Shown here piece by piece: positions 1-49,207 of a stretch of DNA of 64,000 nt. This DNA is from a virus, in IMG/VR virus record IMGVR_UViG_3300026518_000006, positions 1 to 64,000 of that record; one strand, written 5' to 3'. Position numbers and translations under genes: made by a program. The first letter of the stretch is position 1, and each line of letters begins with the position of its first letter. Below the pieces are notes generated by a model that did no database searches, was not told where the DNA came from, and saw nothing but the letters and a program-made list of their open reading frames with translations.

Positions 1-114
1 CAATTATATTTAATATCACAAAGATTAAAACATTTTATGTTTTTAGAAAATATTGAGGTTCCTGATACAGAAATTATGAATTTGAGAGATAGATATTTAG
101 AGTATTTTATTTAA
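1..114 (+). CDS. C-terminal end of a small tailed accessory protein (5' partial)
   Basis: The frame is open from the first base and stops at TAA 112-114. The visible 37 residues are charged and end in RYLEYFI, the tail found on many early proteins of this window. The start lies upstream of the window. No function can be assigned. Confidence 0.6.
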   Translation, partial: QLYLISQRLKHFMFLENIEVPDTEIMNLRDRYLEYFI

Positions 115-163
115 AGTTTAAAGATAATATAATATTAAAACAATATAATAAAAAGAGGGTTTT

Positions 164-408
164 ATGAATATAGATGTGAAACTAACATACAACGATTTAA
201 AGTTATTCCTGAGTGATAAAGATGTTGAAGAAATTGAAAATTTTCCTACACCGACAATACAACAGGCTAAACAAATGAAAAAACTTTGGGAAAGAACATA
301 CGGCTCTACTCTTCTTAGAGGTGAAGATAGGGAAAGTATTATAGGGGGATTATTATGATGAAGCCATATTTAAAAGTCCTAAAAGAATACCCTGAACTGT
401 TTATATAA
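164..408 (+). pseudogene. small tailed protein split by a -1 frameshift
   Basis: An ORF starts at ATG 164 behind AAAAAGAGGG and stops at 356-358. The C-terminal tail (KEYPELFI) lies one frame back and reads to TAA 406-408. A -1 shift in the G5 run at 344-348 joins the two halves into a protein of about 80 residues. Either the G run has lost a base, the ribosome slips there, or the assembly has an error. TATAAT-like boxes lie just upstream (128-133 and 144-149). Function unknown. Confidence 0.55.
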
Positions 409-423
409 GAAGGATAATAAAAA

Positions 424-714
424 ATGAAAAATATAGAAAACGCCCCGTTTAGTGTAGGTTTAACAGTATATCACATAAAAGAGTTTAAGATAACAGAGTT
501 TATTGTGTTTAAACAGAGCAATAATTTTTTTATGGATATATTGGGGAATAGATATTCTAAAAAGAAGTGTTTTTCTGAGAAAAAATACGCTGAGTTTGAA
601 GTATATAAAAATATTAAAAGATTGCTGAATGATAACAAACTTACATTTGAAATGATTGATTCAATCAGAGAAAAGTATAATGAGTACAATAAGACAACAA
701 AACAAATAACATAA
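424..714 (+). CDS. hypothetical protein, 96 aa
   Basis: This ORF begins 15 bases after the previous gene behind an AAGGATAATAA leader and is followed 9 bases later by the next gene, so it sits in the same operon. It has an N-terminal beta-rich half and a charged helical C-terminal half (Lys/Glu/Asn-rich). Unlike most neighbours it ends in KQIT and lacks the shared tail. No family is recognised. Confidence 0.6.
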   Translation: MKNIENAPFSVGLTVYHIKEFKITEFIVFKQSNNFFMDILGNRYSKKKCFSEKKYAEFEVYKNIKRLLNDNKLTFEMIDSIREKYNEYNKTTKQIT

Positions 715-723
715 AGGATAACA

Positions 724-1125
724 ATGGATGATTTTATTAAATACAGAAATGCCCTGAATAATAACTATACAAATTATAATATCACTTACGACAAATATGA
801 GATTAAGTATTTACTTAGCCTTGGTAAAAAAGTTGAGATTATCGAAGTAAAAAAGTATGAATACTCAGACAAAAATACAGAAAAACTTATCGTTAATGGC
901 GTTATCCCTATTTATTTGGGTTGGAGAAAGACATTTAGAGGGGTTGATGATGGTGCAAAATATGGCGTGTATGTGGATAAAAATGATGTTTTAGCTGATA
1001 TTGTGGAGTATTATAAAATCAAGAAGTTGTTATTGAAGAAGTATAAAAAGAACTATGACAATACATTGAAATATATTAAAGATATAGAAGAGGTTATGAA
1101 AGGAAATGAGGAGTATATGATATGA
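724..1125 (+). CDS. small accessory protein, 133 aa, variant tail
   Basis: The start at ATG 724 follows AAAGGATAAC. The protein reads as a beta-rich N-terminal domain (residues about 20-80), then a Lys-rich helix, and ends NEEYMI, a variant of the shared tail. Its stop overlaps the start of the next gene at 1122 (ATGATATGA region), which suggests translational coupling. Function unknown. Confidence 0.65.
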   Translation: MDDFIKYRNALNNNYTNYNITYDKYEIKYLLSLGKKVEIIEVKKYEYSDKNTEKLIVNGVIPIYLGWRKTFRGVDDGAKYGVYVDKNDVLADIVEYYKIKKLLLKKYKKNYDNTLKYIKDIEEVMKGNEEYMI

Positions 1126-1496
1126 TTATTCAGTCTAATAAAGAGATAAAAATATTTTACAACCATTTTGTTGCTGAAGAATTGAATGAAGATGGGTCGC
1201 CAAAATACCAACCACCAACACCTCCTCATAAGATTGACTCTGAAGTGGATAGTTTTGTCCTGAGTAAATCTTTCATTCCTAAAGAGTTGCACATTAAGAT
1301 GGTTCCTGATTATTCAGTTAATGGTGATATAGATAACAGAGAGTATTTTTATGAGCTACACTTAATAGATTATACTATTACCAGTAGAAATTTACAGTTT
1401 ATCAGAATGTTGCTCAAAGTTATAGCTGATTATAGAGCGGAAAAAATTGACTATGATTATAATATTATTGAAAATTACCCCCAAATGTTTGTGTAG
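1122..1496 (+). CDS. small tailed accessory protein, 124 aa
   Basis: It starts at ATG 1122, overlapping the previous stop. The body has alternating beta and helical stretches and ends with NYPQMFV, matching the shared C-terminal tail. No domain is recognised. It belongs to the early plus-strand train of short genes. Confidence 0.65.
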   Translation: MIIQSNKEIKIFYNHFVAEELNEDGSPKYQPPTPPHKIDSEVDSFVLSKSFIPKELHIKMVPDYSVNGDIDNREYFYELHLIDYTITSRNLQFIRMLLKVIADYRAEKIDYDYNIIENYPQMFV

Positions 1497-1504
1497 GGTG
1501 AACA

Positions 1505-1826
1505 ATGTCCGACTTAGAAAAAAATAAGCTTGTTGAGGGTGGTGTATATAGCGTAGATTTTAGTGACTATAGTTTTAGTAGTGAAATAAGCCAAAAAAAA
1601 GAAATCTGTAATTCACATAAGAAGTATCAAAGAAGATAGTTTTATATTTGTATTTGTTATAACAAATAATAATCAACTGAATCCTAATTTTAAGCGTCTG
1701 CAAGCTAAATCCAAAAATTTAAAAATGAGGTATTTAGGGATAAATACAAAAACCGACTCTAATATTAAAACATACCCATTAATACAACAAGAAATAATAA
1801 ACAATTATCCTGAAATTTTAATTTAG
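1505..1826 (+). pseudogene. tailed accessory protein broken at an A8 run
   Basis: ATG 1505 opens a 44-codon frame (MSDLEKNKLVEGGVYSVDF). After the A8 run at 1593-1600 the coding signal continues in the +1 frame (KSVIHIRSIKEDSFIFVFV) to TAG 1824-1826 and ends NNYPEILI, a clear tail. Removing one A restores a single protein of about 106 residues. The break is genuine decay, a slippage-controlled gene, or a homopolymer error in the assembly. Confidence 0.55.
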
Positions 1827-1913
1827 TTTTGCTTTATTCGACTACCCATCTATATTTAAAGCTATATTAAATATTAATTGTGGTACACTTTTATAAAAGA
1901 GATAGGGGTGTTT

Positions 1914-2231
1914 ATGATAAAAGAACTAATTCCAAACAAAATATACTATAGAGGTAATACAAAACCACCATTTTATACAGAAGAAATGGCTACTGTGATA
2001 AATGATGATGGAACTTTTGGGGATGCAACCCATCCCCGTATAAACGCTATTGAGATAGCTTTAAAGTATTGGTGTGAAACAAAAGAAGAAGCAATAGAAA
2101 ATATGATTTCTTATTACTTTACTTTGCGTAATTACAAAGAAGATTTTAATAATAAATCAGATGCGTATAGGGATTTTGTTAACGATATGAAAGAGTATCT
2201 TATTAAACAACACCCTGAGTATTTAGTATAA
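1914..2231 (+). CDS. small tailed accessory protein, 105 aa
   Basis: I choose ATG 1914 (MIKELIPNKIYYRG) behind GAGATAGGGG rather than the in-frame ATG at 1878. Residues 1-50 look like a small beta barrel. They are followed by a T-K-E-E-A-I helix found in several neighbours (for example in the gene at 4285) and the tail KQHPEYLV. Function unknown. Confidence 0.65.
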   Translation: MIKELIPNKIYYRGNTKPPFYTEEMATVINDDGTFGDATHPRINAIEIALKYWCETKEEAIENMISYYFTLRNYKEDFNNKSDAYRDFVNDMKEYLIKQHPEYLV

Positions 2232-2257
2232 AATATCATAAAAATTGAGAGGATAAA

Positions 2258-2611: not shown

Positions 2612-2620
2612 AGAGTAAAT

Positions 2621-2967
2621 ATGAAATTGACAATCAATAACATTTCTATAGTAGATATGCCTATAAAAATAAACAATATCAACGAGCTTAGGCTATTTGC
2701 ACAACTAATAGAAGTTGATTATGATGAATATTTTAAACTTTACAAAGAAGTGGAGATAGAAACATCAAATGTAAGCGATAGGCATTATATGTTTCCTATG
2801 TTGGTTATGGTCAAAAAGAGACATTTTCACGAGAGGTTATGTATGAATTACTTCACAACCCGTATTATCCAACCAAAAAAGAAATGGAATTGTACAACTC
2901 AAAACATTGGCATAAGTACATAGAATTAAAGTGTTTTATTAATAAAGAAATGGAGTACTTCATATGA
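2621..2967 (+). pseudogene. tailed accessory protein with a -1 frameshift at AAAAAG
   Basis: ATG 2621 opens a frame that remains plausible to about residue 66 and then turns Cys/Asn-rich before stopping at 2923. At C-AAA-AAG (2812-2818) the -1 frame continues smoothly as KKETFSREVMYELLHNPYYP and ends KEMEYFI at TGA 2965-2967. The stop overlaps the next start (2964) as ATGA. One A lost from an A6 run, programmed slippage, or a sequencing error would each explain this. Confidence 0.6.
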
Positions 2968-3275
2968 ATTTAATTTTATCCAATCAATTCTGTGAAGAAT
3001 ATAAAAACAAAAAAGAAATATTACATAAAGGTGATATTGTTATTTATAAAGATATAGATACAAAGAGATGGGAAAACTATATTGTAATAGGAAAAGTTGT
3101 ATATACAAGTGCAATTAAAAGCGATAAAGTTAGAATTTTGGCTATTAAGTCATTTGGAAATGATAACTTGAATATGATTTCGGATTATGGGTATGTTATA
3201 ACTAAAAAAATGATAATGTATAAGATAATAGATTTTGAGTTATTTCTTGAAAATAATTCAGAGCATTTTATATAG
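2964..3275 (+). CDS. tailed small protein, first of three tandem paralogs
   Basis: The protein begins NLILSNQFCEEYKNKK and continues HKGDIVIYKD, an SH3/KOW-like beta-barrel pattern, then ends NNSEHFI. The two following genes share the N-terminal element (NQF/DKFCEEYK), the K-G-D-x-V-x-Y strand and the tail, so this looks like a tandem duplication. The start overlaps the previous gene by four bases. Confidence 0.7.
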   Translation: MNLILSNQFCEEYKNKKEILHKGDIVIYKDIDTKRWENYIVIGKVVYTSAIKSDKVRILAIKSFGNDNLNMISDYGYVITKKMIMYKIIDFELFLENNSEHFI

Positions 3276-3284: not shown

Positions 3285-3608
3285 ATGATTATATCAGATA
3301 AATTCTGTGAAGAATATAAATCACAACAAATTAAAAAAGGCGATTATGTGGTTTATAGGTATGAGGATGGTATAGCCCGATATTTAGATGAAGATTATCA
3401 CGAGTACCCTTTTTGTTTGATATATGGGGTAATTGTGTCGGTTTCTCCATTAAAAATAAAAGAGATATGTGTTGTGGGTGGCAAACTCCCTGATGGTCAA
3501 ACATTATGGTCTGATGAATTAGGGATAAGTTTAGATAACAGAAAGATAAAATATGTTATAATAGACAATATTTTGTTTGAACAAACTAATGCGGAGTATT
3601 TTGTATGA
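3285..3608 (+). CDS. tailed small protein, second tandem paralog
   Basis: It starts MIISDKFCEEYKSQQ, closely matching the preceding gene, followed by KKGDYVVYR and a beta-rich core, and ends NAEYFV. The final GTA-TGA overlaps the ATG of the next gene at 3605. No known function; the barrel-like core could bind nucleic acid or protein. Confidence 0.7.
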   Translation: MIISDKFCEEYKSQQIKKGDYVVYRYEDGIARYLDEDYHEYPFCLIYGVIVSVSPLKIKEICVVGGKLPDGQTLWSDELGISLDNRKIKYVIIDNILFEQTNAEYFV

Positions 3609-3913
3609 TTAAGTTTAATAAATTTGGTGTAGAAAAATACAACAATCAAAGGCTAAACAAAAATGATTGGATTATTTATCCTGTATGTAATGGGGAATCA
3701 CCTTATTATTTTAATAATGATTGTTGTTTTATGGTGAGTAAAATCAAAAAAGTAAATGTAGATGCAGTAAAAGCTAAAGAATATGTGCCATTGGGTAGAC
3801 TACCTAAAAATCAAAAAAAGTTTAAAAAAACATTAGTGCATAAAAATGAAATTCTATTTATCATAGCTGATTATAAACTATTCATAAAAAATAACGCAGA
3901 GTATTTTGTATAA
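3605..3913 (+). CDS. tailed small protein, third tandem paralog
   Basis: It begins KFNKFGVEKYNNQRLNKNDW, an eroded copy of the N-terminal element of the two genes before it, and ends with the same NNAEYFV. The start overlaps the previous stop. Divergence between the copies is high at the DNA level, while the tail is kept with different codons. Confidence 0.7.
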   Translation: MIKFNKFGVEKYNNQRLNKNDWIIYPVCNGESPYYFNNDCCFMVSKIKKVNVDAVKAKEYVPLGRLPKNQKKFKKTLVHKNEILFIIADYKLFIKNNAEYFV

Positions 3914-3943: not shown

Positions 3944-4288
3944 ATGAAGTGGCTTTTAACTATGGAGGGGGATAAACCCGCCATTTACAGGATTGTAGAT
4001 GAATTCGATGGCTCATATAAAATAGAAGAGAAAAAATACCAATATTACTCTTTCAAATATATAAAGAAACATAGACCAGTAAAACTCTTTAGAACCAAGG
4101 CTTTGGCTACAAAATATATGCGTAAAATAATACCTTTAATACCAAAGGCATTCGAAGAAGATGAAACTATTAAACAGAAAAAAACTGAAATCAAAAAACT
4201 TCAAAACGAATTAAGAGAATACAAGGAGCAAATTCGACACACATTAATTAAAAGAGCTGATAAAGTGTTTCCTGAGTATTTTATATGA
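3944..4288 (+). CDS. tailed accessory protein with coiled coil, 114 aa
   Basis: ATG 3944 (MKWLLTMEGDKPAIY) begins a beta-rich N-terminal half, followed by a predicted coiled coil from about residue 70 to 100 (KKTEIKKLQNELREYKEQI). The protein ends KVFPEYFI. The ATA-TGA stop overlaps the next ATG at 4285. Function unknown. Confidence 0.65.
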   Translation: MKWLLTMEGDKPAIYRIVDEFDGSYKIEEKKYQYYSFKYIKKHRPVKLFRTKALATKYMRKIIPLIPKAFEEDETIKQKKTEIKKLQNELREYKEQIRHTLIKRADKVFPEYFI

Positions 4289-4596
4289 GAACTACAAAAT
4301 TAAAAACAAACACCACCTATTATGTTTGGCATTCAAAATACCCATTTTATAAAGAAGTGGTAATACTTGGTTTTAGTCACGATAACACAAGGTATTATAC
4401 AAAAAAGAAAGAAAAATATGCTATGGTCAGAAATGCTGAAATAACTTTCAAAGATACTAAAGAGCAGGCTATAGCCGATACAGTTAGGAGATATTTTTAT
4501 TATAAACACACAGAAACAGACAGAACTTATTTTCAAGACGAGTTTTTAGAAGAAGTAGAAAAATATACGGACAATTTGCTTGAGTTCTTTGTGTGA
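4285..4596 (+). CDS. tailed accessory protein, 103 aa
   Basis: The start overlaps the previous stop. The N terminus (LKTNTTYYVWHSKYPFYKE) and the T-K-E-Q-A-I helix resemble the gene at 1914-2231, so the two are likely paralogs. It ends NLLEFFV. No family assigned. Confidence 0.65.
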   Translation: MRTTKLKTNTTYYVWHSKYPFYKEVVILGFSHDNTRYYTKKKEKYAMVRNAEITFKDTKEQAIADTVRRYFYYKHTETDRTYFQDEFLEEVEKYTDNLLEFFV

Positions 4597-6808: not shown

Positions 6809-7366
6809 ATGAGAAAAAACAAAATAAGAAAAATTAAAAAGCAACAACTAAAAACAAAAAGCAAAATTCTAAAAGAGAAACAAGAAACACTCAAAACCTA
6901 TAAGCTAAATTCAGAATATAAAGAGGAAACCCCCAACTTTAATTTTTATGATTATTTTTCAAAATATCTAATAAAAGAAATAAGTGATGATATTACTAAC
7001 AATACTGTCACTTATACTCCTCTGTCAGAAATTGAAAATATTGAAGTAAGTTTCACTTTTGACACTTCAGCATTTCTAAGCGTATACAATGATGATATTC
7101 TTGGTAGTCTTACTGATAGAGATAAAAAGAAAATGAAAGTTTCTGAAACATTGGATGAATATGATAAAGATATAGAACGGCTTCAAAAAATTAAGTACAG
7201 TCTTCCAAATAAATATGGAGGTAGGTCAAATAATAAAAAAAAATTTAGTGGCTATGAAGATAGAAGTAGAATAGCCAATGAAGAAATCAGATTAGATAAA
7301 AAAATCAAAAAATTAATAAAAGAAAAGGAAAATTTCTATAATGAGCACCTTGAATACTTCATATAA
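6809..7366 (+). CDS. tailed coiled-coil protein, 185 aa
   Basis: ATG 6809 follows AAGGCTTTAAG. Residues 1-30 form a strongly basic helix, the centre is beta-rich, and the C-terminal third is a Lys-rich coiled coil ending NEHLEYFI. It is among the longest proteins carrying the shared tail. Function unknown. Confidence 0.7.
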   Translation: MRKNKIRKIKKQQLKTKSKILKEKQETLKTYKLNSEYKEETPNFNFYDYFSKYLIKEISDDITNNTVTYTPLSEIENIEVSFTFDTSAFLSVYNDDILGSLTDRDKKKMKVSETLDEYDKDIERLQKIKYSLPNKYGGRSNNKKKFSGYEDRSRIANEEIRLDKKIKKLIKEKENFYNEHLEYFI

Positions 7367-7604
7367 TTTTCCTTTGACTGTTGATGAAAGAGAAATGTTG
7401 TTAGAAAAAGCCAAAACAAATATATTGGTAATTAAATATGTTAAAAAAGACATAGAAAAACACAAAGAAAGAGAAAAGTTAATCAAGAATTATTTAGAAG
7501 AGAGAGCTTGGGGCAAAAAACTACAAGCTCTTGAGAATAAATTAAATGATTTTGAAAAAGAACTCCAAGAGGTAATTGATAAAGCTCCTGAGCTCTTTAT
7601 TTGA
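7341..7604 (+). CDS. tailed coiled-coil protein, 87 aa
   Basis: The frame starts at ATG 7341, inside the last codons of the previous gene, so the true start may be later. The body is almost entirely helical and charged and ends KAPELFI. The last bases overlap the convergent gene at 7597. Function unknown. Confidence 0.6.
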   Translation: MSTLNTSYNFPLTVDEREMLLEKAKTNILVIKYVKKDIEKHKEREKLIKNYLEERAWGKKLQALENKLNDFEKELQEVIDKAPELFI

Positions 7605-8924: not shown

Positions 8925-9830
8925 ATGAATGAGCCTATTGCTGTTGATATCGGATATAGTTCAACAAAAGTTTCATATAGAGGAAAACAGGTAAGATTTC
9001 CTACTGCAATCAGTTTTGCTACTGATATTGGTACTCAATTTGGGCAGGAGAATGTATATAAATTTGAGGGTGAAAAATATTATGTAGGACAAGAAGCTGT
9101 ATCAGAGGAGAGCTTTACTACTACTGACTACAAATTTCTGCGTAAATTTGCACCGCTACTAATCTTTCATATTTTGAAGAAATTTGACGAGCATAATCTT
9201 GATATGCCTATTGTTGTTAAAACAGGACTTGCCATCTCGGATTGGGATAAGCGAGATGACTTTAAACAAAGATTGTCAACTATTGAAGTTGATGGTAAAA
9301 AAATTGATTTACAGGTCACTGTGATACCTCAAGGAGCAGGGGCAATTATTGATTGGGTTAACAACGAAAATAATGGGGTTTACCCTGACAGAATTTCAGT
9401 TATAGATATCGGTCACAATACTATTAATTTTTTATCATATGTAAATGGAAGACCTGTAAAAAAAGACATTAGTGGCTACCCAGGACACGGCATATCATCT
9501 ATCATAAAGCCGTTTACAAATTATCTTGAAAATACATATAAAATGAATTTCAGCCAACAAGAAGCTATCCAAATATTCATAAAAAACAAGTTTATGTTTA
9601 ATGGTGAAGACCAAGAGAATGTTAGGGAAATGATTACTCAACTTAAAAAACAGTTTGTGTCTAAGCTTTTTAATAGTGTTTTGGTGAATGATAAGAAAAT
9701 TATCGGCATTAGTGATATTGTGCTTTTGGCAGGGGGTGGGGCTCTACTGCTTCAAGATGTAGACTTTCCCCCTCAATACAAAATTATACAAGAACCAGTG
9801 TTCGCTAATGTAAGAGGGTACGCAGTATGA
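8925..9830 (+). CDS. ParM/StbA-like actin-fold ATPase
   Basis: The 301-residue protein has the actin-superfamily signature: phosphate-1 loop AVDIGYSSTK near the N terminus, phosphate-2 loop VIDIGHNTINF near residue 160, and adenosine motif LLAGGGALLL near residue 280. This matches the ParM/Alp branch. Such proteins polymerise to move plasmids or, in phages, replicated genomes or replication compartments. The following methyltransferase overlaps its stop, and a candidate DNA-binding adaptor follows at 10449. Confidence 0.85.
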   Translation: MNEPIAVDIGYSSTKVSYRGKQVRFPTAISFATDIGTQFGQENVYKFEGEKYYVGQEAVSEESFTTTDYKFLRKFAPLLIFHILKKFDEHNLDMPIVVKTGLAISDWDKRDDFKQRLSTIEVDGKKIDLQVTVIPQGAGAIIDWVNNENNGVYPDRISVIDIGHNTINFLSYVNGRPVKKDISGYPGHGISSIIKPFTNYLENTYKMNFSQQEAIQIFIKNKFMFNGEDQENVREMITQLKKQFVSKLFNSVLVNDKKIIGISDIVLLAGGGALLLQDVDFPPQYKIIQEPVFANVRGYAV

Positions 9831-12844: not shown

Positions 12845-13573
12845 ATGACATTTAAAGACCTCTATGGAGACAAATCAAATGAAGTCTATTATGGAGACCT
12901 TAATATCTCTGATAAAGGATTAACTTCATTAGAGGGTTGTTATAAAAAAGTTGAGGGCAATTTTGATTGTAGTTATAACAAAATAACTTCATTTAAGTAC
13001 TGTCCTGATATTAGTGGTGACTTTTATTGTAATAGAAACAACATAGCTGCATTTAAGTTTTGTCCTGATGTTGAGGGTGATTTTGATTGTAGTTATAACA
13101 AAATAACTTCCTTTAAGTACTGTCCTGATGTTAAGGGTGACTTTTATTGTAATGGAAACAACATAGCTTCATTTGAATACTGTCCTGATATTAGTGGTGA
13201 CTTTAATTGTAGTGATAATCAAATAACTTCATTTAAGTTTTGTCCTGATGTTGAGGGTGATTTTGATTGTTATAATAACAAAATAACTTCCTTTGAATAC
13301 TGTCCTGATATTAGTGGTGACTTTAATTGTAGTGATAATCAAATAACTTCATTTAAATACTGTCCTGATATTGAGGGTAATTTTTATTGTAGTAGAAACA
13401 AAATAACTTCCTTTAAGTTTTGTCCTGATATTAAGGGTAATTTTAATTGTAATCATAATCAAATAACCTCATTTGAAAACAAATACTATTACCCTAATGT
13501 AGAGTTAGACAAAGACATTAAACAAAAATATATTGAGTTCGGTAAAAAATATTTTCCTCAGTATTTTATTTGA
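12845..13573 (+). CDS. leucine-rich-like repeat protein A with tail
   Basis: The protein has a conserved cap (MTFKDLYGDKSNEVYYGDL), then a degenerate unit and eight exact 20-residue repeats of the form ITSFKYCPDISGDFYCNGNN, and closes with a helical end KDIKQKYIEFGKKYFPQYFI. Each repeat carries two regularly placed Cys, a Pro-Asp turn and an Asn near the end, as in the phage and bacterial LRR-like solenoids that read SLxGCPxxVxGDFxCxxNxL. The likely role is protein binding. It has two paralogs in the window (20273 and 37017) and an early promoter of its own. Confidence 0.8.
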   Translation: MTFKDLYGDKSNEVYYGDLNISDKGLTSLEGCYKKVEGNFDCSYNKITSFKYCPDISGDFYCNRNNIAAFKFCPDVEGDFDCSYNKITSFKYCPDVKGDFYCNGNNIASFEYCPDISGDFNCSDNQITSFKFCPDVEGDFDCYNNKITSFEYCPDISGDFNCSDNQITSFKYCPDIEGNFYCSRNKITSFKFCPDIKGNFNCNHNQITSFENKYYYPNVELDKDIKQKYIEFGKKYFPQYFI

Positions 13574-15801: not shown

Positions 15802-17952
15802 ATGCAACTATCAAATTTTAAATCATTTAAACAAGATATCAATGAAGTCTTAATTACATTTGGAAATAAAGCCTACCCAAAATTCGGAAACATTGTTATC
15901 TTAGCAGGCGGAGCAGGTTGTTACCCAAAAGGAACAGAATATTTTAACGGTACTTCTTGGGTACCAATCGAAGATTATGATGGGGGTAAAATTTTACAGT
16001 ATAACCCAACAGACGGTAAAGCAACACTAACTAAACCAACCGACTATATTGTTCTTCCTACTGACCAATTTTATCGTATTAAAAACAGAAGAGTTGACTT
16101 TGTTACATCTGAGACACACAAACATATACTTATCAACGAGAAAACAAACAAAAAAGAGGTTTTAACAACTAAAGATATTTATGCTAAACACAATACACTA
16201 TCAAGAGGAAATAAAGCTAAACTAATCACTTCTTTTGATTATAGTGGCGATGGAATAGATTTAGATGATAATGAGATTAAATTGAGAATAGCTGTAATTG
16301 CAGATGGTCACATTCTACCTGTAAAAAAAGGACATAAAGTAAGAATATCTTTTAATAAAGATAGAAAGATTGAATATTTTAAAGAACTTCTTATTAACTC
16401 AAAGAAAGATTATAAAGAATACAAAGAAATTATTAACGGTGTAGAATTTACGAGATTTGAATTTTATCATACAACAAATGAAAAAGAGTTCCAAGATTAT
16501 TGGTATAATGCTTCTAAAAAACAACTCAAACTTATTACAGAAGAGATTCTAAAATGGGATGGCTCTATATCAAATAGAGCGGGTAGAAAAGAAGCAAAGA
16601 GATTTAGTTCAAACTCTAAAAAGAGCATAGATTTCGTTCAATTTGCATTCCATAGTATTGGAAAAACAGCTACACTATCAGTTGATAATCGTGTCGATAA
16701 AAATATCAATTACTCTTTGGTTATAAATCATAGCGATGGTTTGGGTATTTCTAAGAATGATAGAGCTGTTTCCACTACCAAAATCGAAAAGGTTAAAGCT
16801 TCAGATGAGATGTATTGTTTTACTGTAGATAGTGGTTTTTTTGTAGTCAGACAAAAGGGTAGAGTATATGTTTCAGGCAATTCAGGCAAAGGTTATGTTC
16901 AAGACAAACTAATGGGAATAGAGGGGAAAGCACTAGATGTAGATTTCTTAAAAAAGATGGCTCTAAAAGCACCTGAACTACAAAAAAAGGTAAAAGAGAA
17001 ATTTGGAAAAGACCTCAGCGAATTCAACTTAAAGCGTCCTCAAGATGTGAAAGATTTGCACGAGATTATTAAAAAGATGGGTCTTTCAGATGCAAAGAAA
17101 GAAAACCTCTATACTTCTATTTTAGCAGGAAATCCCGAAAGAAAACCAAACTTAATCTTTGATGTTACCTTAGATAGTTTTAGTAAATTTGAAGAGATAA
17201 CAAAAAAAGCCGATGAATTAGGGTATAAAAAAGAAAATATTCATATTGTGTGGGTGGTAAATGATATTAAAGTAGCAATGGAACAGAACAGAGGGCGTGA
17301 CCGTATTGTACCTGAAGACATTTTGATTAGCACTCACAAAGGGGCTTCTCTAACAATGGATAAAATACTTTCGCAATCTAAAAAAATCACAAAATATATG
17401 AATGGAGTGATAGTTCTTGCTTTCAATAAAAAAGGTGAAGATAGTGTTGTTAGAAAGTCTAAATTGCCGAATATTGCAGATTTACAAAAAAAGCTTAAAA
17501 AAGCTGAGGATAAAGGTGATTTTGACGCTATGCACAGTATCGAAAAAGAAATCGAAGATTTCAAAGCTGAATACGGTAATAAAGGTATCAGACAAGGTTC
17601 AGGTGGTTTCTATGTAGTAGAAGCCAATTATGTGGTTGTAAAGGAAAAAGGAAAGCCTATTGATGAAAAGAAACTTGGACGAAAACTTCTTGTAAAAATT
17701 AAAGACTATACCCCAAATGAGAAAGATTTTCCTACCCCTAAAAAAGAAAGTCACGAAGCCGATGTAACTGATGTGATTGTAGAAAAAAACTCATTAGAAG
17801 CAATCCGTGAGCTTACTGATGAACTATCTCAACTAGGTAAAATACTCACCACAGAGTACAAAAAACAAAGAGAAAATCTTAAACACAATGTAGAAGATGT
17901 GGAAAAGAAGATGTTGGTTTTAACCAAAAAACTACAAAAAGAGCTTTCGTAG
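15802..17952 (+). CDS. P-loop kinase-like protein interrupted by an intein
   Basis: The precursor is 716 residues. Residues 1-39 end NIVILAGGAG and the host protein resumes at residue 361 with SGKGYVQDKL, so splicing rebuilds the Walker A loop GGAGSGKG. The 395-residue spliced product resembles the zeta-toxin/kinase-like P-loop proteins of T4-type phages, with later FDVTLDSFSKF, HIVWVVNDI and NRGRDR (lid-like Arg), and a helical C terminus. Without splicing the ATPase should be dead. It lies in a late operon and ends inside an intrinsic terminator. Confidence 0.8.
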   Translation: MQLSNFKSFKQDINEVLITFGNKAYPKFGNIVILAGGAGCYPKGTEYFNGTSWVPIEDYDGGKILQYNPTDGKATLTKPTDYIVLPTDQFYRIKNRRVDFVTSETHKHILINEKTNKKEVLTTKDIYAKHNTLSRGNKAKLITSFDYSGDGIDLDDNEIKLRIAVIADGHILPVKKGHKVRISFNKDRKIEYFKELLINSKKDYKEYKEIINGVEFTRFEFYHTTNEKEFQDYWYNASKKQLKLITEEILKWDGSISNRAGRKEAKRFSSNSKKSIDFVQFAFHSIGKTATLSVDNRVDKNINYSLVINHSDGLGISKNDRAVSTTKIEKVKASDEMYCFTVDSGFFVVRQKGRVYVSGNSGKGYVQDKLMGIEGKALDVDFLKKMALKAPELQKKVKEKFGKDLSEFNLKRPQDVKDLHEIIKKMGLSDAKKENLYTSILAGNPERKPNLIFDVTLDSFSKFEEITKKADELGYKKENIHIVWVVNDIKVAMEQNRGRDRIVPEDILISTHKGASLTMDKILSQSKKITKYMNGVIVLAFNKKGEDSVVRKSKLPNIADLQKKLKKAEDKGDFDAMHSIEKEIEDFKAEYGNKGIRQGSGGFYVVEANYVVVKEKGKPIDEKKLGRKLLVKIKDYTPNEKDFPTPKKESHEADVTDVIVEKNSLEAIRELTDELSQLGKILTTEYKKQRENLKHNVEDVEKKMLVLTKKLQKELS
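15919..16881 (+). mobile_element. intein with LAGLIDADG-type homing endonuclease
   Basis: The 321-residue element starts with catalytic Cys (CYPKGTEYFNGTSWVPIEDY, block A), has TSETHKHIL (block B, with T and H), and ends YCFTVDSGFFVV plus RVYVSGN followed by Ser+1. Between these are two endonuclease motifs, RIAVIADGHI and ITEEILKWDGSI. The penultimate residue is Gly instead of the usual His, so Asn cyclisation may be slow or assisted. Insertion at a Walker A loop is a classical intein site. Confidence 0.85.
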
Positions 17953-18274: not shown

Positions 18275-18691
18275 ATGACATACAAAGACCTCATCAACAA
18301 AATTGAATCAAAAAATTACACACTCACTAAACTATCACAAAAAATTGAAAAAGAACACGCTATAGCTACGGCAATTAGACGAACACTAAAAACTCTCTTT
18401 TTAGAAGCTGTCGAAAAATCAGGCAAAAAATATATTGGTTTATATGAAATGGGGGAAATCTATATGGAACAACCATATAACTTTCGTATAGGAATGAGCC
18501 TTAGTGAGTTTAGAGATAACCTGAAATCTATTATATCAAAAGAAACATCTTTGGATATTTTTTATCACGAAAATATAGAAGGGCTTTACAATATGTCTGT
18601 TAGTTTGTATAAATTTAGGGCTTACCGTGATGTTCTTATTTCAAAACTTAATATATTAGATTACAATTATTTCAACGCTGAGGAGTTATAA
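18275..18691 (+). CDS. hypothetical protein, 138 aa
   Basis: ATG 18275 follows AAAAAGGATAAAGT. The N terminus MTYKDLINKIESK loosely resembles the capsid-targeting pattern but lacks a clear cleavage context. The body is helical. The stop overlaps the ATG of the next gene (18691), so the two are probably co-translated. Function unknown. Confidence 0.6.
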   Translation: MTYKDLINKIESKNYTLTKLSQKIEKEHAIATAIRRTLKTLFLEAVEKSGKKYIGLYEMGEIYMEQPYNFRIGMSLSEFRDNLKSIISKETSLDIFYHENIEGLYNMSVSLYKFRAYRDVLISKLNILDYNYFNAEEL

Positions 18692-19620
18692 TGTATTGCG
18701 TATATTGTGGGGACTATTTTTCTAATAACAAGTCTCTTGTAAACCATAGGAAAATTTGTAAATTGAACCCGAAAAGTGATACAGCAAAAGAAAGAGAAAC
18801 TAACAAAAAAGAAGAAGAATATCTCAATATTGTCAATAAAATAGAAAGCTTTAATGATATCATTAAAACTGTTGATGAGTATATGGCTGAGAGAGGGTAT
18901 GTAGTTCATTGGGAATCAATTCCATCTAATTTTAGTATAGATATAAATCACTACGAAAAAACTGTATCTAACAATAAAAAGACACAAAATGTTGGGTGGA
19001 AAGGTAATTGGAAAGGCAAAATCGAAAGAATACCTGATTTTAAAGGAGATAATTACAGAAGATGTAGTTTTTGGGATATAAATGGCGATATGTCGGGAAT
19101 ATACGATTTAAAATTCCTCCGTACAAACGGTGGTTCTTGGGGGAGTAGTTTTAGTGGAGAAGGTTATATTCTGCTAAATGATTTTCCTAAACTTATTAAA
19201 AAATATGAAAAACAGGCATCAAAAACTAAAATTAAGCAAGATTTGTCTGAAATAACAATTAGATTGGACAAACTTTATCAAAATAGAGAAAATGAGTACA
19301 TAAAAAATGACGAACTCAAAATAAAAGCTCACGAGATACAACAAAAAATGAGAAAAAATTTGGAAAATTTATCCACAGTTATAAGAAAAAGAGAGACTAC
19401 ACTTAGAAATAAGTTCAGAAATGAAACAACAATCCCATTGCCATCAATAGAGGATGATTTTCAAAATCTTAGTGGATATATGGAGCTAAAAAATAAATTT
19501 GCTTCAAATGAAAAAGTGGCTCTTGATGATGATGTAATCAAAGACGCTATCAAAGACCTTGAAGGTGTATATGCTGAATACAAGGCATTTACAAACGAAT
19601 ATTCAGAATTTTTTATATAG
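18691..19620 (+). CDS. tailed zinc-finger coiled-coil protein, 309 aa
   Basis: The N terminus CVYCGDYFSNNKSLVNHRKIC is a C2H2/C2HC-type zinc finger (residues 3-23). A middle domain follows (NVGWKGNWKGKIERI through FLRTNGGSWGSSFSGEGYIL), then a long coiled coil (about 170-260) and the tail EYSEFFI. The gene at 21787 is a broken paralog of the middle and C-terminal parts. The finger suggests nucleic-acid or protein binding in early infection. Confidence 0.7.
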   Translation: MYCVYCGDYFSNNKSLVNHRKICKLNPKSDTAKERETNKKEEEYLNIVNKIESFNDIIKTVDEYMAERGYVVHWESIPSNFSIDINHYEKTVSNNKKTQNVGWKGNWKGKIERIPDFKGDNYRRCSFWDINGDMSGIYDLKFLRTNGGSWGSSFSGEGYILLNDFPKLIKKYEKQASKTKIKQDLSEITIRLDKLYQNRENEYIKNDELKIKAHEIQQKMRKNLENLSTVIRKRETTLRNKFRNETTIPLPSIEDDFQNLSGYMELKNKFASNEKVALDDDVIKDAIKDLEGVYAEYKAFTNEYSEFFI

Positions 19621-20272: not shown

Positions 20273-21001
20273 ATGACATTTAAAGACCTCTATGGAGACA
20301 AATCAAATGAAGTCTATTATGGAGACCTTAATATCTCTGATAAAGGATTAACTTCATTAGAGGGTTGTTATAAAAAAGTTGAGGGCAATTTTTATTGTAG
20401 TAGAAACAAAATAACTTCATTTGAGTATTGTCCTGATATTAAGGATAACTTTTATTGTAATGGAAACAAAATAACCTCATTTAAGTTTTGTCCTGATGTT
20501 GAGGGCAATTTTTATTGTAGTAGAAACAAAATAACTTCATTTGAGTATTGTCCTGATATTAAGGGTGATTTTTATTGTAGTGGAAATCAAATAACTTCCT
20601 TTGAGTATTGTCCTGATATTAAGGGTGATTTTTATTGTAGGGGAAACAAAATAACTTCCTTTGAGTATTGTCCTGATGTTAAGGGTAGCTTTAATTGTAG
20701 AGATAATCAAATAACTTCCTTTGAGTATTGTCCTGATATTAAGGGTGATTTTTATTGTAGGGGAAACAAAATAACTTCATTTAAATACTGTCCTGATATT
20801 AAGGGTAACTTTTATTGTAGTGGAAATCAAATAACTTCCTTTGAGTATTGTCCTGATATTAGTGGTGACTTTAGTTGTCGTAATAACAAAATAACTTCCT
20901 TTGAAAACGAGTATTACTATCCTAATGTAGAGTTAGACAAAGACATTAAACAAAAATATATTGAGTTCGGTAAAGAACACTTTCCTCAGTACTTTATTTG
21001 A
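20273..21001 (+). CDS. leucine-rich-like repeat protein B with tail
   Basis: I choose ATG 20273 (MTFKDLYGD) as in the paralogs, with GGAG just upstream. The cap and C-terminal end are almost identical to the protein at 12845. The eight central 20-residue repeats (ITSFEYCPDIKGDFYCRGNK type) are shuffled and vary mainly at surface positions. It ends HFPQYFI followed by a 13-bp tandem array. There is no TTGACT promoter directly upstream; it is read with the genes before it. Confidence 0.8.
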   Translation: MTFKDLYGDKSNEVYYGDLNISDKGLTSLEGCYKKVEGNFYCSRNKITSFEYCPDIKDNFYCNGNKITSFKFCPDVEGNFYCSRNKITSFEYCPDIKGDFYCSGNQITSFEYCPDIKGDFYCRGNKITSFEYCPDVKGSFNCRDNQITSFEYCPDIKGDFYCRGNKITSFKYCPDIKGNFYCSGNQITSFEYCPDISGDFSCRNNKITSFENEYYYPNVELDKDIKQKYIEFGKEHFPQYFI

Positions 21002-28299: not shown

Positions 28300-28495
28300 T
28301 TTAAATACAAATAGTGGAAATAGTGGTGGTATTGTTAGTACAACAATACCATTAACTACAACATCAGATACAGTAGCATTTCAATCTGATACAGGTGTTA
28401 GAATAGACATTGTACAACTACAAAAAAAAGTAGAAGAACTTGAAGAAATGGTCAACCTCCTTATATTAGAAGTTATGCCTGAAAGAGTAGTTTAA
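28280..28495 (+). CDS. small coiled-coil protein, 71 aa
   Basis: ATG 28280 sits behind AAGGAAAATAAAG within the end of the ClpP-like gene. Residues 1-45 are Ser/Thr/Gly-rich; the rest is a short leucine-zipper-like coil (VQLQKKVEELEEMVNLL), ending MPERVV. The overlap suggests coupling to the protease, and a partner or trimerising role is possible. Confidence 0.55.
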   Translation: MGKVLYDLNTNSGNSGGIVSTTIPLTTTSDTVAFQSDTGVRIDIVQLQKKVEELEEMVNLLILEVMPERVV

Positions 28496-34905: not shown

Positions 34906-35918
34906 TTAAATTATTTAATGGTGATGCTCTTGATGTAATGGATAAGCTGATAGAAAAGGGTATTAAGGTGGACGCTATCATTACTGACCCACCGTATGGT
35001 ACTACAGCCTGTTCTTGGGATTCAGTAATTCCTTTTGATGAAATGTGGAAAAGATTAAATATTATTATGAAATCTAACGGGACAATCGCTTTGTTCGGTT
35101 CTGAGCCTTTTAGTAGTGCTTTGAGGATGAGTAATATAGAAATGTTTAAGTATGATTGGATATGGGAAAAATCTCAAGGTGCAAATTTTGCATTAGTAAA
35201 ACATCAACCATATAAGGTGCACGAAATTATATCTGTATTTTATAATGACCTCAGTAAAACTACATACTCAACAAAAGCGTTTAAAGAATTGAGAAGATAT
35301 TTCAAAGACCTATTAAATTATATCGGATTACCAAAGTCAAAGATAGTAAATGATGTCGGGGGAAGAGCTGACCATTGTTTTAGAAGCGATAGCTCACAGT
35401 GGTGTATTCCATCAGAAGAAACATATAATATACTGATTAACAAATACAATATAGACAAATATAAAGGATTTAAAACATATTCGGAATTAAATTTGATATA
35501 CGAAGATGAATTAAAATCATTTAAAAAAACCTACAATTATATTACTACAGATGGAAAGAAATATATATCAGGCAAAGGGCATAGTGGGGAAACAACTGGT
35601 AATTTTAAAAAAACACAAACAATAAATAACGGGAAGAGATTTCCAAGAAGTATTCAAAAATTTGCACAAAACAAAACCATTTCCTTTCACCCAACCCAAA
35701 AGCCTGTTGAATTGATGGAATATTTGATACGAACATATACAAATGAGGGAGAATTAGTTTTAGATTTCACTATGGGTTCAGGGACAACTTTAGTCGCCTG
35801 TAAACAGCTAAATAGAAATGGTATAGGTATTGAGTTAAATGAGGACTATTTTAAAATAGCACAACAAAGAGTAGACGAAGCCGTAGAGGGTTCATCTTTA
35901 AATAAGGATGTGGAATGA
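34902..35918 (+). CDS. beta-class N6-adenine/N4-cytosine DNA methyltransferase
   Basis: The 338-residue enzyme has catalytic DPPY in IITDPPYGTT (about residues 26-35), and the SAM motifs follow later: HPTQKPVELMEYLI and LVLDFTMGSGTTLVAC (about 285-300), the beta-class permuted order. The centre (about 110-235) is a likely target-recognition domain. It overlaps both neighbours, so it is in an early operon. A role in protection from host restriction is likely. Confidence 0.85.
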   Translation: MIKLFNGDALDVMDKLIEKGIKVDAIITDPPYGTTACSWDSVIPFDEMWKRLNIIMKSNGTIALFGSEPFSSALRMSNIEMFKYDWIWEKSQGANFALVKHQPYKVHEIISVFYNDLSKTTYSTKAFKELRRYFKDLLNYIGLPKSKIVNDVGGRADHCFRSDSSQWCIPSEETYNILINKYNIDKYKGFKTYSELNLIYEDELKSFKKTYNYITTDGKKYISGKGHSGETTGNFKKTQTINNGKRFPRSIQKFAQNKTISFHPTQKPVELMEYLIRTYTNEGELVLDFTMGSGTTLVACKQLNRNGIGIELNEDYFKIAQQRVDEAVEGSSLNKDVE

Positions 35919-36145
35919 GTGAGCCGAAAAAAAGAGATTTTTTAGGACAAGAGATTAATGTTGGCGATTTTGCTTGTTGTTCGAGTGCTTCAGCCTCAAC
36001 AGGAATGTATATAGGAAAAGTGATAAAAATCACAGACCACAAGGTACAACTAACAGCTTTAGACGGCAAAAAACATATGAAATCTTTTGATAAAGTTTTT
36101 ATAGTAACTAAACAAATTGAGGAAATTCCTGAGATGTTGATTTAG
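35915..36145 (+). CDS. tailed small barrel protein, 76 aa
   Basis: The start overlaps the methylase stop. EINVGDFACCSSASASTGMY followed by GKVIKITDHKVQL is a clear SH3/KOW-like fold, and the end IPEMLI is a variant tail. It is convergent with the gene at 36151. It could be a cofactor of the methylase, from position only. Confidence 0.6.
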   Translation: MSEPKKRDFLGQEINVGDFACCSSASASTGMYIGKVIKITDHKVQLTALDGKKHMKSFDKVFIVTKQIEEIPEMLI

Positions 36146-37016: not shown

Positions 37017-37865
37017 ATGACATTCAAAGACCTCTATGGAGACAAATCAAATGAAGTCTATTATGGAAACCTTGATATCTCTGATAAAGGATTAACTTCA
37101 TTGGAAGGTTGTTATAAAAGAGTTGAGGGCGATTTTAATTGTAGTTATAACCAAATAACTTCATTCAAGTATTGTCCTGATATTAGTGGTGACTTTTATT
37201 GTGGTTATAATCAGATAACCTCATTTGAGTTTTGTCCTGATGTTGAGGGCAATTTTTATTGTAGTAGAAACAAAATAACTTCATTTGAGTTTTGCCCTGA
37301 TGTTAAGGGCGATTTTGATTGTAGGGGAAACAAAATAACTTCATTTAAATACTGTCCTGATGTTGAGGGTAATTTTTATTGTAGTTATAACAAAATAACT
37401 TCATTTAAGTTTTGTCCTGATATTAAGGGGAATTTTTATTGCAGTTATAATCAGATAACTTCATTCAAATGCTGTCCTGATATTAGTGGTGACTTTTATT
37501 GTGGTTATAATCAAATAACTTCATTTGAGTTTTGTCATGATATTAACGGTGTCTTTAATTGTAATGGTAATCAAATAGCTTCATTTAAATACTGTCCTGA
37601 TATTAAGGGGGATTTTTATTGTTATAATAACAAAATAGATTCCTTTAAGTATTGTCCTGATGTTAAAGGTGATATTAATTGTAGTGATAATCAAATAGCT
37701 TCATTTAAATACTGTCCTGATATTAAGGGTAATTTTAATTGTAATCATAATCAAATAACCTCATTTGAAAACAAATACTATTACCCTAATGTAGAGTTAG
37801 ACGAAGACATCAAAAAACGCTATGTTGAGTTCGGTAAAAAACACTTTCCTCAGTATTTCATATAG
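37017..37865 (+). CDS. leucine-rich-like repeat protein C with tail
   Basis: The cap and C-terminal end match those at 12845 and 20273, but there are ten central 20-residue repeats, so the 282-residue protein is exactly two units longer than its 242-residue paralogs. One unit has lost its Pro (FCHDINGVFNC). It ends HFPQYFI. No 13-bp array follows, but a palindrome and early promoter do. Unequal exchange between repeats would explain the length difference. Confidence 0.8.
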   Translation: MTFKDLYGDKSNEVYYGNLDISDKGLTSLEGCYKRVEGDFNCSYNQITSFKYCPDISGDFYCGYNQITSFEFCPDVEGNFYCSRNKITSFEFCPDVKGDFDCRGNKITSFKYCPDVEGNFYCSYNKITSFKFCPDIKGNFYCSYNQITSFKCCPDISGDFYCGYNQITSFEFCHDINGVFNCNGNQIASFKYCPDIKGDFYCYNNKIDSFKYCPDVKGDINCSDNQIASFKYCPDIKGNFNCNHNQITSFENKYYYPNVELDEDIKKRYVEFGKKHFPQYFI

Positions 37866-46432: not shown

Positions 46433-46457
46433 CAATAATAAATACAAGGACACAAAA

Positions 46458-46952: not shown

Positions 46953-46956
46953 TAAA

Positions 46957-47382: not shown

Positions 47383-47394
47383 AAAGGAATACAA

Positions 47395-48144: not shown

Positions 48145-48221
48145 AAATTAATCGGCAATTTAAGGTTATTTTAAGAGATAATCAGCTATAATTGCATTAA
48201 TAAAAATATAAAGGACAGCGT

Positions 48222-48275
48222 ATGAAATCTATGAAGATTCAAGACGCATCCACTAAAGAAGATGGTGATTTATAG
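48222..48275 (+). CDS. 17-residue leader-type ORF
   Basis: ATG 48222 follows AAAGGACAGCGT. The peptide MKSMKIQDASTKEDGDL ends just before a pair of alternative RNA hairpins. It could be a leader peptide controlling those structures; otherwise it is chance. Confidence 0.3.
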   Translation: MKSMKIQDASTKEDGDL

Positions 48276-48286
48276 TCGCTAATCTT

Positions 48287-48347
48287 GGGTGCGTCTTTAA
48301 ATAAACACAAGACGCACCCACCTCCAAATACAATCCAAAGGTGGGTG
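48287..48347 (+). ncRNA. mutually exclusive RNA hairpins upstream of tRNA-Lys
   Basis: GGGTGCGTCTT (48287-48297) pairs with AAGACGCACCC (48309-48319). CACCCACCT (48315-48323) pairs with AGGTGGGTG (48339-48347). The two stems share 48315-48319, so only one can form at a time. In an AT-rich genome these GC-rich stems stand out. A switch, attenuator or processing signal is possible. Confidence 0.5.
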
Positions 48348-48356
48348 TTATCAAAA

Positions 48357-48433
48357 GGGTGTGTAGCTCAGTTGGTAGTAGCACTCGACTTTTAATCGAG
48401 GGGTCACAGGCTCAAACCCTGTCACACCCACCA
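48357..48433 (+). tRNA. tRNA-Lys (TTT)
   Basis: Acceptor GGGTGTG/CACACCC, anticodon arm CTCGA-CTTTTAA-TCGAG giving TTT, and encoded CCA. The D-loop is slightly long and the T-loop is CTCAAAC rather than TTCAAAC. Confidence 0.88.
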
Positions 48434-48436
48434 TTT

Positions 48437-48509
48437 GGCATATGTCTTTGGAGAACACCTGAACCTCATAAGTTTAGGAAATAAGGGTCAGAACCTTGAT
48501 ATGCCACCA
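48437..48509 (+). tRNA. CAT tRNA with degenerate T-loop
   Basis: Acceptor GGCATAT/ATATGCC is perfect and CCA is encoded. Anticodon arm TGAAC-CTCATAA-GTTTA gives CAT. The T-arm AAGG/CCTT closes GTCAGAA, lacking TTC, and the D-stem is weak. It may be an Ile2 (AUA), a Met tRNA or a decaying gene. Confidence 0.65.
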
Positions 48510-48563
48510 TCCTAACTAAACTCTCATAATATTACTCCACAATTTACACTCATTAAATCACAT

Positions 48564-48592
48564 TTGACTTTTTATTAAGATTATTGTATAAT
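48564..48592 (+). promoter_or_regulatory. early promoter TTGACT-17-TATAAT
   Basis: TTGACT 48564-48569 and TATAAT 48587-48592, spacer 17, upstream of the broken gene at 48624. Confidence 0.85.
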
Positions 48593-48623
48593 CTTAATAT
48601 AAACAAAAAAAGAGGGGCAAAAA

Positions 48624-48914
48624 ATGGGTCTATATGTAAATCCACCATATGATAAAAGGCAATGGCTTATTGACAACTCAGAAACAAAACCACTAAAACA
48701 GAGCGATTTCTTGCTTGATAGTGTTGCTAATGATGAATTTCTTGTAGTTCTTGTCGATAATGGTCTTTTTAATGCAGGAGGGTAGTGTACTCTGAAAGAG
48801 AGTATGTTGATTTTACATCTCCTTCGGATTCAAGACCGAAAGAGTTTTTTATTGTCAAAAAAGAAAAATTAAAACCATACTGTCAAGAGTGGGAATTATA
48901 TGTGGATGAATAGA
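48624..48914 (+). pseudogene. phage protein with an in-frame TAG
   Basis: ATG 48624 opens MGLYVNPPYDKRQWLIDNSE and stops at TAG 48783-48785 after FLVVLVDNGLFNAGG. The same frame continues VYSEREYVDFTSPSDSRPKE and FFIVKKEKLKPYC to TAG 48912-48914. The two halves read as one about 96-residue phage protein of a type where VDNG-F-x-A is followed by YxERE and RPK-x-x-x-V-x-x-EKL. A CAG to TAG change is the simplest cause. Confidence 0.6.
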
Positions 48915-48946
48915 ACCTATTAACCCTATTAAAAACACTTGGGTAT

Positions 48947-49207
48947 TTGCAAATGAAAAAGAAATTGAACTTTAAAAATGGCGACATCTTGTTTGTTGTA
49001 AAAAAAGGATTTGGTGCATATATATGTGCAGTGAAAGGTATATTTCAGTCACTATCTGATACATCTATAACATATAAATGTTCTGTAATATATTCAAAAA
49101 ACAAAAATAATAGTAATGAGGTGATGGTTAATCCTGAAGATATAAAAGCCTATTTAGGTGATGATATTGATGAGGCTGTTGAACAATATGCCGAATATTT
49201 TATATAA
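48947..49207 (+). CDS. tailed small barrel protein, 86 aa
   Basis: The start may be 48947 or ATG 48953; neither has a strong ribosome binding site. LNFKNGDILFVVKKGFGAYI is a barrel-type start, followed by a D-D-I-D-E-A-V helix and the tail QYAEYFI. It is probably read from the early promoter at 48564. Confidence 0.6.
   Translation: MQMKKKLNFKNGDILFVVKKGFGAYICAVKGIFQSLSDTSITYKCSVIYSKNKNNSNEVMVNPEDIKAYLGDDIDEAVEQYAEYFI

Follow-up and report, generated by a model that had tools for sequence, protein, structure and literature searches.

A C-terminal tail shared by unrelated small phage proteins as a possible docking tag for a MoxR-VWA machine

Why do many small phage proteins that have little else in common end in nearly the same five residues? 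The question is raised by the first 64,000 bases (the window) of IMG/VR virus record IMGVR_UViG_3300026518_000006, here called G000, where a first-pass annotation had noticed a shared C-terminal tail of the type PEYFI. G000 (235,593 bp, 31.9% GC) is a T4-like phage. Its ends repeat each other over ~127 bp (window 1-127 and G000 235467-235593), and the genome is therefore probably complete and circular, or terminally redundant. A total of 388 genes was called over the whole record with a home-made caller that combines dicodon and ribosome-binding site signals. We counted a strict form of the ending, [PA][EQ]x[FL][IV], and a looser form.

The strict ending was found on 47 of the 388 G000 genes, where random internal positions would give 0.08, and the looser ending on 67, against 1.3 expected. 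At internal positions, 5 copies of the strict pentapeptide were found in 70,621 residues, a rate that would give 0.03 at C-termini. The 67 tails belong to 59 body clusters, bearing out the earlier statement that the bodies are otherwise unrelated. The tail is present in one of 54 G000 proteins longer than 300 residues, and is not found on the replication, methylase or virion proteins of this phage. Pfam, PHROGs and PADLOC gave the tailed proteins no function beyond leucine-rich repeat (LRR)-like repeats, with few matches in Pfam and PHROGs. In the window, the caller found 21 tailed genes among 103; together with a gene that stops at 114 and a minigene of 17 codons that stops at 408 (PELFI), this makes the first count of about 26 slightly high. 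Eleven of the twelve tails quoted in the first-pass annotation (ending at 1496, 2231, 3608, 4288, 7604, 13573, 19620, 25360, 25692, 36145 and 49207) are C-termini of called genes with the residues given there. The twelfth (LEYFI, 114) belongs to a gene cut by the record start, which is the same gene as G000 235305-235577 because the record ends repeat each other. Codons vary between copies, as had been claimed.

Relatives in IMG/VR were retrieved with the G000 capsid protein, single-protein searches with the DNA polymerase and with a 309-residue tailed protein returning none. In G001, a contig whose capsid protein is 80% identical, 41 of 147 genes are tailed, and in the cultured Vibrio phages phiKT1024 and Va1 the counts are 81 of 330 and 82 of 323, respectively. 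The enrichment that had been proposed as a check holds for the whole genome and for relatives. In contrast, the strict form is absent from T4, KVP40 and Campylobacter phage CP220, which have 1, 4 and 0 loose forms. A DNA pattern of the tail, independent of the gene caller, matched 26 times in G000, 67 times in Va1 and 65 times in phiKT1024 (0-3 for a reversed-pattern control), and 0-2 times in ten other large phages (T4, KVP40, Aeromonas avDM6, MIJ3, 121Q, K367g2, P-SSM7, SonariX, Desulfovibrio 7757 and CP220). In the first 50 kb of phiKT1024, all 22 tailed genes match coding sequences annotated by the depositors.

From 391 tails (262 body clusters, 12 genomes) we derived the consensus [LI][EK]x[LIF][KR][EK]x[YFH]-P-E-[YL]-[FL]-[IV]-COOH. 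Note that the search itself constrains positions -1, -2, -4 and -5, whereas -3 and -6 to -13 are free and the pattern is still visible there. Pro at -5 with Glu at -4 is common to 37-80 proteins per genome in G000, phiKT1024, Va1 and G048 (a podovirus described below), against 0.4-1 expected. The excess persists with one protein per body cluster; no signal of this type was seen in windows further upstream or in the tail-less comparison phages. Tailed genes cluster with one another and turn over fast, with 3-4 common to G000 and G001.

The first-pass annotation had proposed that selection acts on the peptide, and a comparison of Va1 with phiKT1024 confirmed this. Across 67 tailed orthologue pairs, identity reaches 96% over the final five residues (99% for Pro, 100% for Glu) and is 84-87% immediately before them, while codons differ synonymously about as often in the tail as upstream. 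In 206 untailed pairs conservation is lower at the C-terminus than in the body.

The tail also occurs in a second phage family. IMG/VR was scanned with two DNA versions of the tail and no other criterion, returning ~25 stretches with at least two tails. Among the matches were the AD45/N4-like podoviruses G048, G050, G051 and G057, assigned by large conserved genes, including head and DNA-packaging genes, that match Alteromonas phage AD45 and N4. G048 (103.5 kb) has 47 tailed genes of 149, and G050/G051 have 20 tails in 52 kb; AD45-P1 has three weaker forms (HPEYFL, WPEYCL and APELLL). The earlier claim that structural, methylase and replication proteins lack the tail stands for G000; in G051 one larger conserved protein is tailed. 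Podovirus and T4-like members occur together in four body clusters, suggesting that tailed genes can move between phage families. Judged from their sequences, these comparisons show the shared C-terminus to be a peptide-level tag under purifying selection, carried by unrelated bodies in two unrelated phage families.

What could read such a tag? The best candidates are a MoxR-like AAA+ ATPase and a zincin-VWA (DUF2201) protein, both encoded outside the window. The phiKT1024 counterparts match PF07728 (9.4e-12) and PF09967. Both MoxR proteins have the Walker A motif GxHGIGKS and the Walker B motif LFLDE. The metal-ion-dependent adhesion site (MIDAS) of the VWA domain, DxSxS, is intact in every homologue examined (DxSGS in 18 of 18). 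Structure predictions were confined to window and IMG/VR proteins; the VWA model has a VWA fold and matches integrin I domains and NorQD.

Iterated searches with profile hidden Markov models found MoxR, VWA and a few other proteins common to G000, G017, phiKT1024 and Va1 and not in T4, KVP40 and CP220. Among the T4-like phages examined, MoxR and VWA are confined to tail-bearing records; the exceptions are SonariX, with a 28%-identical MoxR, and G008, with a VWA protein. Both are present in all four podoviruses. When G048 was compared with all of G000, phiKT1024, Va1 and G017, keeping proteins absent from tail-less comparison phages (distant N4 homologues aside), the untailed shared proteins were VWA, MoxR and a basic open reading frame (ORF) of 45 residues.

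A reciprocal search with VWA across 45 IMG/VR loci recovered the tail: tails lie within 7 kb at 20 of 26 close homologues and at none of 19 distant ones (p 7e-8), with 55 strict tails in 610 genes and none in 430, respectively. Note that the 26 close loci include phages met earlier and near-duplicates, making the effective sample smaller. Gene order points the same way. Tailed genes make up 25 of 56 immediate neighbours of VWA and MoxR genes, also in the tail-poor G009 and G057, against 7.2 expected from other large genes (p 5e-5, with a smaller effective sample as the close relatives Va1 and phiKT1024 are both counted). The MoxR and VWA genes themselves are adjacent in AD45, a few genes apart in G051 and G057, and separate in G000, Va1, phiKT1024 and G017. 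In a VWA tree the tail carriers fall in one clade, with N4, 121Q, MIJ3 and a Moorella phage outside; the grouping of G000 with other PExFI carriers is moderately supported (83/85).

From these sequence data we lean, by a little, towards the shared C-terminus being a docking tag on accessory small proteins that is read by the phage MoxR-VWA machine. A docking peptide for a phage hub protein is the best fit of the four meanings first offered, the hub being put forward here from co-occurrence in two families, reciprocal searches and gene order. In the proposed mechanism, the tag would be a short linear peptide on non-core proteins and the reader an AAA+ remodelling machine. The near-invariant Glu at -4 would bind the MIDAS metal, like acidic residues in CbbO and integrin I domains, while a groove beside it would take up Pro at -5 and the aromatic/aliphatic end, including the free carboxylate. 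As a guess, the tailed proteins would dock on the machine as interchangeable adaptors or effectors, steering its ATP-driven remodelling to varied host or phage targets; alternatively, they could be its clients. We would guess at adaptors, because diverse, fast-changing small proteins with one dock to a conserved machine look like an adaptor or effector repertoire.

Several observations weigh against a MoxR-VWA reader. At 6 of the 26 close VWA loci no tail lies within 7 kb; in one of these, the 127-kb G008, there is one possible tail at another position. The MoxR/VWA proteins of N4, 121Q, MIJ3 and PBS1 are more distant, and these phages have no tail in the stretches examined. G001, G007, G049 and G052 are tailed, but MoxR was not found in them, nor VWA where it was sought; all four are fragments, and MoxR/VWA cannot be scored in several fragmentary tail-rich contigs. 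Gln replaces Glu at -4 in 16 of 68 G000 tails, which the metal-site model does not predict. The gene sets rest on a home-made caller. In G000 itself, no standard tail lies within two genes of VWA or MoxR. Three genes beside MoxR (G000 161265-162158, minus strand) end in TPYLI or QPYII, perhaps a variant class of tail left out of the counts.

Among other explanations, the one that survives best, although we consider it unlikely, is that the tail is a degron, marking accessory proteins for ATP-dependent destruction by MoxR and the zincin metallopeptidase, in the manner of FtsH, or by a host protease. AAA+ proteases classically recognise hydrophobic peptides at the C-terminus, early proteins are plausible objects of timed removal, and the VWA partner has an N-terminal zincin domain with HExxH kept in nearly all members. 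However, the tail-rich G050/G051 have HNMLH at this site, with the catalytic Glu lost; a catalytic HExxH is thus not found in all tail carriers, and this speaks against proteolysis as their common function. KVP40, a phage of the same host species, lacks strict tails, making a purely host protease unlikely. An invariant Pro-Glu and 96% conservation would hardly be needed in a degron, and fast-turnover accessory genes would gain little from a common one. The LAA end of the ssrA/ClpXP type is not present, the tails finishing in [FL][IV].

We give a shade less credence to the idea that the tail docks on some other phage or host factor, MoxR/VWA co-travelling as accessory blocks are exchanged between marine phages. 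Tailed genes do cross families, as the four mixed clusters indicate, and do lie together; the 45-residue basic ORF could be an alternative reader, and a fast-evolving one could escape similarity searches. Yet most tailed genes are not shared between phages, as between G000 and G001, whereas MoxR and VWA always are where coverage is complete, and the reciprocal VWA search recovers tails. A factor provided by the host alone was judged unlikely. For the PDZ-type ligand suggested by the first-pass annotation, a host receptor has become less likely, because KVP40 also infects V. parahaemolyticus and has 0 strict tails. A free hydrophobic C-terminus of the kind PDZ domains bind is present (position -1 is Ile in 70%, Val in 26% and Leu in 4%, partly set by the search motif), and no PDZ domain was found in a Pfam scan that covered the candidate hub proteins. 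A sorting tag, likewise proposed at first, is unlikely in view of the lack of a hydrophobic or basic anchor after the motif: a transmembrane helix with a basic cluster, as in PEP-CTERM or LPXTG proteins, is not present, and the motif is the extreme C-terminus. Nor do the polymerase, RNase H and SSB-type proteins share the ending, as for a peptide of the sliding-clamp or single-stranded DNA-binding protein (SSB) type; they end otherwise (ADEPW in the G000 polymerase, DDFGW in the phiKT1024 RNase H).

A packaging role, in which the tail would bring accessory proteins into the head to be injected, is quite improbable. The LRR-like proteins combine a capsid-targeting-like N-terminus with the tail, a MoxR-like ATPase co-purified with virions of a related Staphylococcus jumbo phage (PMC10638138), and MoxR-vWA has been proposed to act in virion assembly (PMC7824862). 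However, the N-terminal motif is missing from most tailed proteins, as is the tail from most proteins bearing that motif, and 50-80 different tailed proteins per phage would be much cargo. Hidden homology, that is, one diverged family with a conserved C-terminal strand, is more doubtful still. Several KOW/SH3-like and other small families do recur, but the 391 tails fall into 262 body clusters that include LRR repeats, helical-looking proteins, beta barrels and minigenes of 17-38 residues, and Pfam and PHROGs show no common family; body paralogy was rejected by this clustering. Least credible of all is a translation-coupling artefact, in which the tail codons would serve as Shine-Dalgarno sequence and overlapping start of the next gene, as the first-pass annotation had itself cautioned: for 57 of the 67 G000 tails and 53 of the 81 phiKT1024 tails the stop does not overlap the next start, and some tails face a gene on the opposite strand, where coupling is impossible (for example gene 7341-7604). 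Where there is overlap, Glu is encoded by GAG in 71 of 80 cases, often with an end in ATATGA, which places GGAG or GAGG at the right distance; elsewhere GAA is used in 124 of 174 (Fisher p 3e-20), giving the same peptide from other DNA. Thus coupling shapes the synonymous choice between GAG and GAA, not the peptide.

Table 1. Tailed genes and N-terminal-motif genes of the window, with the candidate reader genes of G000
Position	Strand	Feature	C-terminus	Remarks
Window 1-114	+	3' end of tailed gene cut by record start	LEYFI	= G000 235305-235577
Window 354-408	+	17-codon minigene MMKPYLKVLKEYPELFI, hardly more than tail		overlaps stop of 164-358; DNA-pattern match 391-408
Window 1122-1496	+	tailed gene	YPQMFV
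Window 1725-1826	+	33-residue tailed gene	YPEILI
Window 1914-2231	+	tailed gene	HPEYLV
Window 2964-3275	+	tailed gene	NSEHFI	family with tailed members in Va1, phiKT1024
Window 3285-3608	+	tailed gene	NAEYFV	same family as 2964-3275
Window 3605-3913	+	tailed gene	NAEYFV	same family as 2964-3275
Window 3944-4288	+	tailed gene	FPEYFI	stop overlaps next start
Window 4285-4596	+	tailed gene	LLEFFV
Window 6809-7366	+	tailed gene	HLEYFI
Window 7341-7604	+	tailed gene	APELFI	next gene on opposite strand
Window 12845-13573	+	LRR-like repeat protein, MTFKDLYGD start	FPQYFI	1 of 7 G000 paralogues
Window 18691-19620	+	309-residue tailed protein	YSEFFI	tailed homologues in Va1, phiKT1024
Window 20273-21001	+	LRR-like paralogue	FPQYFI
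Window 21201-21716	+	tailed gene	YPEYII
Window 22267-22383	+	38-residue tailed ORF	HLEYFI	weak call
Window 25007-25360	+	tailed gene	FPERFV	tailed homologues in Va1, phiKT1024
Window 25360-25692	+	tailed gene	YPEYLV	next gene on opposite strand
Window 28280-28495	+	tailed gene	MPERVV
Window 35915-36145	+	KOW/SH3-like small protein	IPEMLI	family has tailed members in T4-like phages and one podovirus
Window 37017-37865	+	LRR-like paralogue	FPQYFI
Window 48953-49207	+	tailed gene	YAEYFI	next gene on opposite strand
Window 12845, 14604, 17980, 18275, 20273, 33174, 37017, 38341, 38859, 45515, 46458, 46957, 47395		starts of N-terminal-motif genes
G000 162243-163349	-	MoxR-like AAA+ ATPase		PF07728 AAA_5, 1.2e-10; outside window
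G000 176620-178179	-	zincin-VWA (DUF2201) protein		PF13203 and PF09967; outside window

The tailed features of the window are listed in Table 1. The minigene may represent the end of the upstream gene in a shifted frame, or encode a decoy peptide. The model of the KOW protein is a small barrel with lower confidence at the C-terminal end (~60), which is compatible, if weakly, with an exposed tail. Seven close LRR-like paralogues, with the N-terminal motif and the ending FPQYFI, are scattered in G000 (12845, 20273, 37017, 100661, 111144, 189284 and 217687). N-terminal motifs like MTFKDLYGD, MTLGKILNE or MFKEIFEES are found on ~12 window proteins and resemble the T4 capsid-targeting sequence of internal head proteins.

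Other proteins were considered as hub and rejected. Actin-like and GroES-like proteins have homologues also in the tail-less CP220 and in G008, and phage ClpP has a homologue in the tail-less KVP40 and CP220. The actin-like protein of the window (8925-9830) is an ALP/ParM-type protein (PF17989); homologues occur in Va1, phiKT1024, G017, CP220 and G008. A ClpP-like serine protease is encoded at 27472-28299 of the window (PF00574, 1.5e-11), and Va1-like phages have another ClpP, closer to cellular ClpP (phiKT1024 132784-133368, 4.4e-48). Elsewhere, long proteins at window 15802-17952 and G000 92529-94694 and 125343-128573 seem on visual inspection to contain inteins or Hint domains (a kinase-like ATPase, an RtcB-like ligase and a ribonucleotide reductase). 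G000 114991-119866 carries genes resembling those of NAD salvage (nicotinamide phosphoribosyltransferase-like, and a nucleotidylyltransferase-Nudix fusion), and KVP40 and G017 have related genes.

It was predicted that further phages with the MoxR-VWA pair might have shared endings of their own, and such endings, of other sequence, were seen in two of them. In the Bacillus jumbo phage BpSp, which has its own C-terminus KTLxKLxxI, Thr at -8 with Leu at -4 is found on 42 proteins against 1.4 expected; taking a single protein from each body cluster leaves 15 against 1.1. Staphylococcus phage S6 has YLVKxNFK, with Val at -6 and Phe at -2 on 17 proteins against 0.3 expected, and its tailed genes cluster directly after its MoxR-VWA genes. 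Note that these tails are longer and partly on paralogues, and present a lead rather than a result. No comparable C-terminal signal was seen in the stretches examined of N4, PBS1, MIJ3, 121Q and the Moorella phage. It is conceivable, though we would hold this tentatively, that several large phages aim a MoxR-VWA machine with a large, fast-changing repertoire of small proteins docking via lineage-specific C-termini, PExFI in marine T4-like and AD45-like phages and others in BpSp and S6.

Most genes of large phages encode small hypothetical proteins without a known role. A tag on a fifth to a third of these that led to one machine would tie phage dark matter to a single testable system; it would also give phage MoxR-VWA pairs a function and provide a peptide handle to fish for host-takeover proteins. 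As a rule for scanning genomes, one would seek shared C-termini rather than shared folds.

Known systems resemble the proposed one in part. SspB tethers to ClpX by its C-terminal peptide. There, as in other AAA+ adaptor tethers, a short C-terminal peptide ties the adaptor to an AAA+ machine, but there is one adaptor where the phages would have dozens. In the PEP-CTERM, LPXTG, type IX C-terminal domain (CTD) and peroxisomal PTS1 systems, many unrelated proteins carry one C-terminal signal with a dedicated reading system. The phage tail differs in having no transmembrane or basic segment, in standing at the extreme C-terminus of cytosolic-looking small proteins, and in belonging to a phage rather than a cell. 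The T4 capsid-targeting sequence is a short tag on many small phage proteins; it is N-terminal, and the similar motif of G000 sits on a gene set largely different from that of the tail.

Closest are the MoxR/VWA pairs. In CbbQO, the VWA MIDAS of CbbO engages an acidic residue of rubisco, and the AAA+ partner may sense the rubisco C-terminus (PMC4660213); in NorQD, the AAA+ pore holds a VWA finger (PMC13036017). A MoxR/metallopeptidase-vWA pair of group 2.2 phages was pointed out in a review of 224 jumbo phages, which proposed roles in virion assembly and proteolysis (PMC7824862). This pair has the same domain architecture in a phage context, and the text of the review does not contain "C-terminal tail" or "C-terminal motif". 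No paper was found on the peptide or on a phage-wide C-terminal tag in a search that mostly lay outside subscription-journal papers and preprints. The occurrence of one tag in two unrelated phage families, together with one phage-encoded remodelling machine, suggests a phage tag-and-reader system that has not been described before. Like RavA-ViaA, CbbQ-CbbO, NorQ-NorD and CobS-CobT, the phage pair combines an AAA_5 ATPase having Walker motifs with a VWA partner having an intact MIDAS, but this partner, unlike theirs, has a zincin domain (DUF2201_N). In contrast to those pairs, which have one or a few dedicated clients, the phage pair would serve 50-80 unrelated proteins via one C-terminal peptide.

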